Positions 16,583-63,992 of a DNA stretch of 64,000 bases are shown piece by piece. This stretch comes from Pontibacillus sp. HMF3514. Its GTDB lineage: Bacteria; Bacillota; Bacilli; Bacillales; BH030062. Numbering within the stretch: position 1 is the first letter of the stretch; the number at the start of each line of letters is the position of its first letter. Both the position numbers and the translations under genes were made by a program. The notes beneath the pieces were generated by a model. The model was given only the letters and a program-made list of their open reading frames with translations, ran no database searches and was not told the origin of the DNA. The stretch lies in contig NZ_CP047393.1 in NCBI RefSeq assembly GCF_009858175.1, positions 2,790,001 to 2,854,000 on the forward strand, written 5' to 3'.

Positions 16583-16850
16583 AAAAATCCTTTTCATCCT
16601 AGAAAAAGGACGAAAAGGATTCGCGGTACCACCTTTATTTACAAACGACATACGTCTTGTCTGTACACTTCATACGTTAACGGATGGACTCCGGTTTCTT
16701 CTACTTCGGTTCAAAGAAACTGCATCTGGGGCGACATTCTGAGTTCAAGTGCCTAGGAACCTCTCACCAAATGGCTCCCTCTCTTTAAGGATTGATCCTC
16801 ATACTCTTCCCCTTCACGGCATTTAGATATCGATTTGTACTTGTTATTTT
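16583..16850 (-). ncRNA. T-box leader controlling valS
   Basis: On the minus strand the T-box core AAGGTGGTACCGCG lies at 16635-16622, followed by a terminator stem (16608-16621 with 16586-16599, AATCC..GGATT ends) and a run of seven T. The bulge sequence TGGT would pair with the ACCA end of tRNA-Val. A stem I-like upstream part runs through GTGAGAGG and reaches a candidate valine specifier GTC at 16735-16733 in GAATGTCGCC. In this class uncharged tRNA pairs with the leader and blocks the terminator. The 5' boundary is approximate. The 130 bases beyond it up to the next gene hold nothing else I can name. Confidence 0.9.
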
Positions 16851-19375: not shown

Positions 19376-19986
19376 GTTATTCAGCAAACTGGTAGGATTG
19401 TTGAAGACTTGAAACTGAGAGGAGTCCGTTGCTGTTGAATAAATTGTTGCGGTCAGTGAAACGGCAAGCCTGTTGTTGCCCCACACGACGTGGGGTAGTT
19501 CTACGTTGCCACATGATGTGGCGGTTTTAGTAGAACCTCCATTGTATAGCCTCCTCGTTCCTGCGGGGTCTCGTCTTCCCTTTGTTACCACGACAGTTTG
19601 CCGTTTCCTTCCCTCCACGCGATTATGGAGACTAACGGACCATAATTCAGCTTTCCCACCTCATATTGCTTGGAAATCATATTCAGAGAAGTTGCTCAGA
19701 CCCTTGTCATGATAGGCTTATACTACCTGGAATCAGAACATCCTCTCCCTGAACTACGGCGGTTCCGTTAGTCACCATTCGGCAAAGGTGGGCTGTGGAA
19801 CGGGTTGACTCCTCCGGTAGAAAGGGCGAGCGAGATCCCGCAGGAACGAAGTGACGAGGAAGCTCGATCGGTCTTCCGGGGAAAGCAACCCGTTCCACAG
19901 CCCGCCGATCTGCACAAAAGCAACGGAACCATACGCACATTATCTCGATTCCAAGTCTTCCACAATAGGGGGCTTCTGTGGAATAA
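19376..19986. repeat. R1 composite repeat, copy A (two head-to-head hairpin units)
   Basis: This 611-bp non-coding block is nearly identical to 58434-58989 outside one internal segment. It holds two units facing each other across a ~120-bp spacer. Unit 1 is bounded by GTCCGTT (19424) and AACGGAC (19634); unit 2 by GGTTCCGTT (19761) and AACGGAACC (19922). Inside unit 2, arms 19787-19807 and 19886-19906 pair over 21 positions with only one G-T wobble, around a conserved apical part with GAGATCCCGCAGGAACG. In unit 1 of this copy an extra piece (19476-19545) carries two more small hairpins. The block sits between spoVID and hemL; open frames inside it are not genes. Confidence 0.9.
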
Positions 19987-40177: not shown

Positions 40178-40315
40178 GTTTTCCCCTCCTATGATGGTTT
40201 GTACTACTATATATACGAGCTTTCAGGCAAAATAGACCAAGCTAGAAAAATTTTATTTATATTAGTGAAGATATATTAAGTTGGCCGGTGGGTTTTGGAT
40301 GGGGAGAGGGATTTG

Positions 40316-40550
40316 TTCCATTAAAGGCCCCTTATGTGGAAGACTTGGATTCGAGATAAGGTGCGTATGGTTCCGTTGCTTTAATGGAGTGCGGCGGGCT
40401 GGGAAACGGGCTGCTTTCCCCGGACGAACGATCGAGCCTCCTCATCCGCTACGCTTCTTGCGGGGTCTCGCTCGCCCGTTTTTCCGGAGGAGTCAGCCCG
40501 TTTCCCAGCCCACCTTAGCCGTAATGAGATTAACGGAACCGCAGCGTAAT
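40316..40550 (-). repeat. R1 repeat, single unit copy B
   Basis: One R1 unit, reversed relative to unit 2 of copies A and D, is bounded by GGTTCCGTT (40369-40377) and AACGGAACC (40532-40540). The conserved outer tail GGAAGACTTGGATTCGAG lies at 40338-40355. The inner arms 40393-40413 and 40494-40514 pair over 21 positions with one wobble on the sense strand. Compared with copy A three arm pairs change on both sides (T-A to G-C, G-C to A-T, T-A to C-G). The unit sits upstream of gerM. Confidence 0.9.
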
Positions 40551-40693
40551 AAGTGTTTCTGTTTGGTATTTGTTAGTTGCACCTTAACAAGATAAAAGAG
40601 GGTTAGAGTCCTGAGATAAAGCGTTTTTATGGCATTTCTGATCTACATATAATACTTTTGATGCGCTATGGAAGATCAACTAATTAGAGCTGG

Positions 40694-40858
40694 GGTCGTT
40701 AACCTACATTCCAATGGGGGGAAGGAAACGGCAAACTCCCGCGGTAGAAAGGGCGGCCGAGACCCCGCAAGGAGCGTAGCGGATGAGGAGGCTTGGACGG
40801 TCTTCCGCAGGAGTATTGCCGTTTCAATGACCCCCACGCCTCACAAAAGCAACGAACC
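40694..40858 (+). repeat. R1 repeat, single unit copy C (diverged)
   Basis: Shares the apical core GAGACCCCGCAAGGAGCGTAGC-like sequence with copy B and pairs AAACGGCAA (40726-40734) with TTGCCGTTT (40816-40824) and TGGGGG (40715-40720) with CCCCCA (40831-40836). The outer ends (GGTCGTT, AACGAACC) are degenerate. It faces the opposite way to copy B, 150 bp away, so B and C form a wide inverted pair between gerM and murI. Confidence 0.82.
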
Positions 40859-40924
40859 CACCCTCTCACTCAGATGCTTATTCCAGATAACTGCCATATA
40901 ATTGAACAATTCGCCCAAAATAAA

Positions 40925-56364: not shown

Positions 56365-56432
56365 CTCTCATTTTACAAAATTGCTTTTCCGCTGTCAATT
56401 CACCTGGGGACTTGTCCTTCATTGTTATAAAG

Positions 56433-56568
56433 AAAACTTGCCGATTGGCAAGCCTTTTAAGGCGCAGACAGAGGCTTAGTTGCACTTATACTTCATTCTT
56501 TCAAAATTTTCACTACGTCGAATTGCTTCTTTGCTAAAATTTTATACTTTCTTAACGTGCAAAGAAAA
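56433..56568 (+). repeat. R2 repeat, copy 1
   Basis: A 136-bp block similar to 63860-63992. Shared pieces include TTGCCGATTGGCAA (56438-56451), GGCGCAGACAGAGGCTTAG, ACTACGTCGAA and CTTCTTTGCTAAAATTT. It contains two adjacent palindromes, TTGCCGATTGGCAA and GCCTTTTAAGGC. It lies just downstream of lcfA on the minus strand and may add terminator function. Confidence 0.8.
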
Positions 56569-58433: not shown

Positions 58434-58989
58434 GTTATTCAGTTATATGGCAGGATTGTTGAAGACTTGAAACTGAGAGGAGTCCGTTGCTGTTGAGTAA
58501 TTTGTTCCGGTCAGTGAAACGGCAAGCCTGTTGTGGAAGAAAAGCCGAGCCTCCTCGTTCCTGCGGGGTCTCGTCTTCCCTTTGTTACCACGACAGTTTG
58601 CCGTTTCCTTCCCTCCACGCGATTATGGAGACTAACGGACCATAATTTAGCTGCTTTCCCACCTCATATTGATTGGAAATCATATTCAGAGAAGTTGCTC
58701 AAACCCTTGTCATGATAGGCTTATACTACCAGAAATCAGAACATCCTCTCCCTAAACTACAGCGGTTCCGTTAATCTCAATAACGCCAAGGTGGGATGTG
58801 GAACGGGTTGACTCCTCCGGTAGAAAGGGCGAGCGAGATCCCGCAGGAACGAAGTGACGAGGAAGCTCGATCGGTCTTCCGGGGAAAGCAACCCGTTCCA
58901 CAGCCCGCCGAACTGTACAAAAGCAACGGAACCATACGCACATTATCTCGATTCCAAGTCTTCCATATAAGGGGGCTTTAATGGAATAA
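58434..58989. repeat. R1 composite repeat, copy D
   Basis: Near-identical to copy A over its shared parts, with the same two head-to-head units (unit 1 58482-58640, unit 2 58764-58933) and the same spacer. It lacks the two extra hairpins of copy A. One arm base differs (GGATG for GGCTG), which breaks one pair. It lies between lcfA and the small ORF behind yshE. The intergenic stretch 58366-58433 has nothing else I can name. Confidence 0.9.
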
Positions 58990-63770: not shown

Positions 63771-63859
63771 CTTGTTCACCTGCTTTTTATCTTAATAAGA
63801 AAAGCGCAAGGGCCCGTATAGCAATGAAGGGACTGGACTGAGCCAGTAGTGAGATTAAC

Positions 63860-63992
63860 CAAACTTGCTGATTGGCAAGCCGTTAGGCGCAGACAGAAGC
63901 TTAGTTGCCGTGGTACTTTAACCTAGAAATTTTAACTACGTCGAAATACTTCTTCGCTAAAATTTCATGTCATCAAATGTGTAAAGGAAACA
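63860..63992 (+). repeat. R2 repeat, copy 2
   Basis: A 133-bp block like copy 1: TTGCTGATTGGCAA (63865-63878), GCCGTTAGGC (63879-63888), GGCGCAGACAGAAGCTTAG, ACTACGTCGAA and CTTCTTCGCTAAAATTTC. It is in the same orientation as copy 1. The sequence just before it (63799-63812) has AAAAGCGCAAGGGCC, another stretch that I remember as common in Bacillaceae intergenic DNA. It abuts the window end. Confidence 0.75.

Follow-up and report, generated by a model that had tools for sequence, protein, structure and literature searches.

The R1 hairpin at 19787–19906 (+ strand), here called hairpin A (GAGATCCCGCA strand; limits from the sequence and the repeat listing), raises the question of what its paired arms are kept for, and what kind of element carries it. 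It lies within the 64 000 nt stretch of DNA analysed here (the window). In the preliminary description, 21 bp arms of A (19787–19807 with 19886–19906) and of hairpin B (40393–40413 with 40494–40514) were said to differ at three sites, each change being matched on the partner arm. Both pairs of arms are present exactly there, and the three paired changes (TA to GC, GC to AT, TA to CG) are exact when B (40393–40514, −; sequence and repeat listing), which is inverted relative to A, is read on its own strand. When both are read on the + strand, four arm positions differ; the fourth is a T.G wobble shared on like strands, which appears as T.G versus C.A in the + strand reading. Hairpin C (40716–40835, +; limits by eye, aligned copies) also retains paired arms, AAACGGCAA/TTGCCGTTT, as had been stated. 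A third A-like copy (58790–58909, +; repeat I9) has one uncompensated change (C-G to A.G). The observation on the arms is confirmed, and its interpretation as a folded RNA or a cruciform is partly supported: two-sided changes occur in all three helices, but RNA and DNA are not separable.

R1 units were collected by their GAGACCCC and GAGGAGGCT motifs, and helix 3, the inner helix, is therefore partly selected for. The alignment consisted of 38 of 56 cluster representatives plus the window copy; the 18 excluded representatives were chance matches, units shortened by Bacillaceae-1 RNA, a truncated unit (L181) and L001, represented by the window copy instead (G and L numbers label the genomes and loci compared, G000 being the window's own genome). 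For these 39 units, which cover the window's genus as well as other Bacillales, RNAalifold returned 24 consensus pairs, 19 of them with two-sided changes. Pairing cells made up 90.7 %, against 72.5 % in shuffled alignments and 36–51 % with partners slid. The covariation score was reached by 0 of 500 shuffles, with the structure taken from the same alignment and with statistics that ignore kinship. At pair 62–105 of the short inner helix, CG occurs 23 times across genera, UA 10 times and GC 6 times, with none broken.

Wobble strand bias was considered as proof of RNA and rejected, as the G.U and A.C counts flip with the strand folded. Among 19 pairs predicted from both strands, G.U fills 23 cells in 5 pairs and A.C 6 cells in 6 pairs; in the union of pairs from both strands the counts are 57 and 92. 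A count of 18 to 7 made earlier seemed to favour RNA and is biased because folds of one strand were used. Comparison of the copies supports a hairpin formed by a folded single strand or a cruciform, with which RNA, cruciform and single-stranded DNA would all be compatible. No Rfam family fits R1 when the whole window is scanned at gathering level; at a relaxed threshold, 40300–40920 gave only miRNA, frameshift and IRES models, every one under its cut-off.

R1 hairpins are halves of larger composite elements, in which a divergent pair stands back to back with the GAGACCCC strands outward and a variable middle. Composite limits were taken from aligned type I copies and from type II copies of the own genome. 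In the loci read, 54 two-ended composites have fixed ends and span 448–743 bp; 50 start with a minus core and end with a plus core (35 of the 54 with exactly one of each) and 4 are single-core. Composite 1 (type I; 19377–19986, +), with both ends found, carries hairpin A and, as the first of the pair, hairpin E (19448–19621, −; limits by eye, repeat I11). It is flanked by spoVID-like and class-III aminotransferase genes (Pfam) and was compared in an alignment with 21 further type I copies from the own genome, the window copy at 58435 among them. Composite 2, or BC (40313–40909, −), is located between genes for a Germane-domain (GerM-like) protein and an Asp/Glu racemase. Composite 3, or D (58435–58989, +), contains the third A-like hairpin, is a short form without Bacillaceae-1 and is flanked by AMP-binding enzyme and DUF350 genes. 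At L050 (G000:C1:2707000–2710000) tandem copies of a unit like GGGTAGGCGACGGAATCGCTC take the place of the composite's first hairpin.

The 631 bp region around A has 118 aligned stretches in its own genome. The left-end pattern, with up to three mismatches, matches 122 times in the 3.98 Mb genome versus 5 times for the reversed pattern; with up to two mismatches, among eight genomes of the genus, there are 92 matches in the own genome, 70 in G002 and 0–2 in the others. The longest ATG ORF in the composites has a median of 65 and a maximum of 202 aa, and Pfam gives no match for the three ORFs that overlap composites of the window. By their sequence, R1 composites are apparently non-coding, that is, ORF-less. 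The window also holds two copies of a second dispersed repeat family (56408–56493 and 63835–63918; GATTGGCAAGCC...AGGCGCAGACAGAGGCTTAGTTGC), for which 56426–56567 has several matches in G001 and one each in G002 and G007; a piece of this family adjoins the L008 locus in G002. A T-box leader is located at 16603–16826 (−), ahead of an 880-aa ORF.

The apex of hairpin E holds a Bacillaceae-1 RNA (RF01690; 19480–19546, −; Rfam 64.5 bits, cut-off 35). This is the only position in the window at which the RF01690 gathering score is met, and R1 itself is no member. Type I copies have either the 67 nt Bacillaceae-1 segment or about 13 nt in that place, and 12 of 20 further loci scanned contain one RF01690 match each. 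Across seven loci compared, the distance from the RF01690 start to the GAGACCCC core is 26 nt in the type I copy L001 and 36–41 nt in L029, L039, L049, L057, L141 and L274. Bacillaceae-1 may be an interchangeable apical domain of R1.

The R1 model matches 152 of 199 genomes of the order and 77 of 97 genera, with up to 16 matches scored per genome, in agreement with the earlier statement that many Bacillaceae have similar elements. This breadth, together with the strongly kept internal motifs, the two-sided changes in three helices and the presence of an Rfam sRNA family in the apex, would suit R1 as primarily a functional RNA (an sRNA, a processing element or a cis element), to which the cassette-type ends described below are merely a vehicle. 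The wobble counts, in which the balance of G.U to A.C depends on the strand folded, lend this reading no backing; it is regarded as somewhat unlikely. Homogenisation of the arms, by template switching at quasi-palindromes or by exchange of whole hairpins, could likewise produce paired changes with no selection for pairing; at L018 the whole A hairpin has been swapped for a B-like one, bringing all paired changes together, and L008 carries a swapped apex. However, two-sided changes are also found in the short inner helix across genera, and conserved unpaired motifs stand between the helices, both of which make homogenisation an unlikely source of the pattern.

The left end of a composite consists of an outer arm TTATTCARTTAWA, a core TGGCAG and an inner arm TTATCTGGAATAAG or GATTGTTGAAGAC; the right end has an inner arm TATCTCGATTCCAAGTCTTCCnnnTAA, a core GGGGGC and an outer arm TTTAATGGAATAA. 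Inner arms are near-constant and outer arms variable among type I copies. In composite 1 the left site (19377–19408, +) is TTATTCAGCAAAC-TGGTAG-GATTGTTGAAGAC (outer arm, core, inner arm) and the right site (19939–19986, +) is TATCTCGATTCCAAGTCTTCC-nnnnn-GGGGGC-TTCTGTGGAATAA. In format, the right end agrees with the sites standing between small genes in gene-cassette arrays of the same genus. One such array, located in the own genome via a search for tyrosine recombinases, lies at ~323–350 kb, where an RHS-repeat protein is followed by small genes and a 280-aa recombinase; its spacer sites read ATCTCGAATTCAAGTsTTC-n-GGGCGC-n-CTGGAATAA. Arrays of this type also occur in G001 and G002, and in all three genomes the recombinase gene sits inside the array, among the cassettes and on the same strand. 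Over six loci, 46 array sites are on the recombinase strand and 3 on the opposite one, some of the 46 being counted twice because G000 and G002 share orthologous sequence. Of 47 ends of segments duplicated between arrays, 10 fall no more than 10 nt from a core, compared with a mean of 1.2 and a maximum of 6 in 1000 random draws. The cargo (Pfam) includes GNAT, HAD, HIT, NUDIX, histidine phosphatase, kinase, barstar and DUF34 genes. At L151 (5059–12183) an RHS-repeat protein is upstream of an array holding a barstar-like gene; immunity-gene cassettes beside the RHS-repeat protein are possible.

A position weight matrix (PWM) was trained on 33 sites from the recombinase-bearing arrays of G001 and G002, at loci without R1; one training locus, L161, shares long identical stretches with part of the G000 array. 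When the matrix was run over the window on both strands, its three top scores fell on the right ends of composites 1 to 3: 31.2 at 19939–19986 (+), 31.2 at 58942–58989 (+) and 28.5 at 40313–40360 (−). The fourth-best score in the window is 10.7 and the best in 10 Markov windows is 18.8; a cassette-type right end is present in 3 of 3 window composites. Elsewhere, L178 in G007 scores 31.0 and the other five of the six loci L176–L181 have none above 16. Sites at or above the threshold of 19 were found in three of five comparison loci (three in L159, one each in L135 and L141).

End-like palindromes are also found in other genera, often with small ORFs behind them and a second palindrome. G193 and G152 contain co-oriented small-gene arrays spaced by CAATC-core-GATTG sites. 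Arrays are visible by eye in Halobacillus (L228) and Litchfieldia (L233); in Lysinibacillus (L210) there is one possible site, with no array seen. At P sites of G088, G168, G193 and G145 (L070, L072, L089, L091 and L095) a shared promoter-like flank (TATGATAAAATGGAAATATCAG and close variants) directly precedes TTATTC (by eye), in the manner of an integron cassette promoter; in Pontibacillus neither an attI site nor such a promoter was defined.

The array recombinase matches PF00589 (1.5e-39). Intact relatives share 72–100 % identity in G000, G001, G002 and G175 and 65–77 % in G088 and G046; R138, K162, H229, R232, H255 and Y264, which we take to be the catalytic columns, are invariant in 7 of 7 proteins of 279–283 aa. 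A total of 209 relatives were found, and the best 80 of these belong to Bacillales genera except for one unclassified Bacillota MAG. The cut-off of the IntI subfamily (TIGR02249; 265) was missed by three proteins, with 103, 102 and 92 bits and matches split in two stretches. NCBIfam NF040815, 'site-specific tyrosine recombinase/integron integrase', gave 220.4 against a cut-off of 220 in one of the three proteins and lower scores in two. Its name puts 'integron' on a neighbouring model, a label which is no evidence of function. PDB relatives are, in order, XerD (1a0p), a XerC-like protein (4a8e) and XerA (5hxy), with IntI4 (2a3v) far later; by sequence likeness the recombinase relatives would be XerA/XerD-like. 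In G003 (C32:23557–24395), a same-genus genome without an R1 model match, a relative is split over two frames.

At the best 80 of the 209 recombinase loci, a strict site pattern matched 21 times on the recombinase strand and 7 times on the opposite strand (shuffles 0.33 and 1.7), at 16 of the 80 loci; without two P. marinus loci the counts are 17 and 7. Thirty XerC/XerD-type control loci (105 kb) gave 1 and 2, and these three matches, all at loci from the window's genus, resemble genuine composite-end sites; an excess per base over the control is not clear. A looser palindromic-core count gave 78 in 868 kb of recombinase loci versus 3 in the 105 kb of control loci; per 100 kb, this is 9.0 in 78 non-Pontibacillus recombinase loci, 2.9 in the control (only 3 matches) and 3.0 in shuffles. 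A single site pattern for all genera was tried and fails in most loci, the format varying outside Pontibacillus. Four tyrosine recombinase genes in a row are found near the G000 array and in G002, with a similar row in G007 (L152 14273–19490; L155; L156). Those of G000 (C1:353241–357281) were set aside as candidates for the enzyme, with no end-type site in L152–L153.

The ends were first read as transposon inverted repeats of a MITE or IS; the duplication test was negative, and the end pattern led to the cassette arrays. A MITE-like nature of R1 composites, with a conventional DDE or REP-type (Y1) transposase moving them and only a secondary likeness to array sites, agrees with their many dispersed copies, their imperfect terminal inverted repeats (TTATTC...), the finding of R1 far outside cassette contexts and a P-like site in another genus with ORFs 1–3 kb downstream (L082; G078:C1:3677300–3681300), but is improbable given ends that match recombinase-array sites and 54 copies in which no target duplication stands out at lengths 2–9 over a range of offsets. 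The ORFs near the L082 site resemble an IS66 set.

The gaps between the same neighbour genes were compared across species. No composite stands in the BC gap of G003 and G005 or in the D gap of G004, G005 and G006; the cut point is unreadable in these empty gaps because the flanks are only 69–77 % identical. In G004 and G006 the empty D gap still shows (by eye) a site-like remnant, and loss at D is for that reason as possible as non-insertion. Orthologues of the BC gap (L170, L171, L173, L174) contain R1 units in G004 and cassette-type sites in G001, G006 and G007; this would fit either an old insertion that these genomes have in common or a hot spot. Against a 93 %-identical sister genome, 10 loci included no precise empty site: 4 were filled, 5 had flanks on different contigs, which is compatible with presence, and 1, L008, showed an indel that exceeds the element size. 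Neither excision nor a circle nor integration was observed.

Because their ends match the sites of recombinase-bearing cassette arrays, R1 composites look like runaway cassettes. They are probably ORF-less cassettes of an integron-like Bacillaceae system, mobilised in trans by the tyrosine recombinase. The recombinase, or a relative since lost, would excise segments and re-insert them at palindromic sites, joining core to core; the composites would have spread across the chromosome as non-coding passengers. The conserved outer arms, in more than 100 copies, require a palindromic target or longer ends, and such a target is hardly seen unoccupied in G000. R1 may persist because its folded strand serves as a substrate in recombination, binds a protein as a cruciform or acts as RNA. 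More tentatively, the Bacillaceae could possess a cassette system of their own, made up of a Xer-like 280-aa recombinase and dif-like palindromic sites in place of IntI and attC, with R1 as a selfish non-coding offshoot whose hairpins present folded single strands to the recombinase; this would account for the more than 100 chromosomal sites and the spread over the order.

Co-occurrence of the recombinase and R1 is not strict. R1 composites occur without this recombinase in G004–G007 (only matches of 29–33 % identity) and G151 (none at 1e-30); G193, G168, G126 and G152 carry P sites or arrays, yet only ~30 %-identity recombinase matches. Of 11 foreign R1 pairs, 2 have a cassette-type site by PWM, in another family (G175 and G124), and 9 have none by PWM; two more pair-end sites were seen by eye, at L277 (that other family) and L272 (the window's genus). 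At L119 the R1 units have quite different outer arms and a cassette end was not noticed. Given this loose association, the few foreign pairs that are site-ended and the 152 genomes matched, R1 is a wider hairpin family for which the cassette form is one setting.

For Firmicutes, the IntegronFinder 2.0 survey reports a single complete integron, in Limnochorda pilosa, besides a few CALINs. With integrons very rare in this phylum by that survey, the cassette reading, if true, would add a second way for gene cassettes to be exchanged, one that uses other sites and another recombinase, with relatives in many Bacillaceae genera. Genes of immunity type, for example barstar next to an RHS protein, would be among those exchanged. 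A hairpin family that is very abundant and unnamed, and Bacillaceae-1 RNA with it, would gain a concrete setting and become testable in an ordinary laboratory host.

Searches of open-access PMC text listed no paper whose title or abstract opening describes this system or R1. Known systems were compared using parts of PMC2864571, PMC9029176, PMC8632094, PMC2267715, PMC9024848, PMC8618304, PMC12690207 and PMC11023631. Like R1, bcr1 of the Bacillus cereus group, described in these parts with mobile-element traits, and Bhal-1 of B. halodurans are intergenic hairpin repeats of Bacillus; their units, of 147–167 bp and 74 bp, are shorter. Bacillaceae-1 RNA is an Rfam family nested in R1 apices, spans 67 nt only and is lacking from many R1 units. 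REP/RAYT and MITE elements are palindromic, dispersed and apparently non-coding, as is R1; unlike them, R1 has no detected duplication and has ends that are recombinase-array sites, and a RAYT or DDE partner did not come to notice.

In XerCD/dif-type sites, two inverted arms flank a 6 nt core. The arrays share this layout and a Xer-like recombinase, but differ in that partner cores are unlike (GGGCAG, GGGGGC, GGGCGC) and in their gene-cassette organisation. The integron appears to be what the array system works like, though not a class to which it would belong: the attC motifs RYYYAAC/GTTRRRY are found in 0 of 33 array sites, and the ~280-aa recombinase is not of the IntI subfamily, has XerD/XerA as its nearest PDB relatives and is encoded inside the array and co-oriented with it. 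Dispersal of integron cassettes outside arrays has reportedly been described (attG). Common to integrons and the array system are the array of small genes, the short recombination-type spacer sites, a tyrosine recombinase gene at the array and similar cargo, as well as ORF-less cassettes, arrays without an integrase (CALINs) and cassettes outside arrays.
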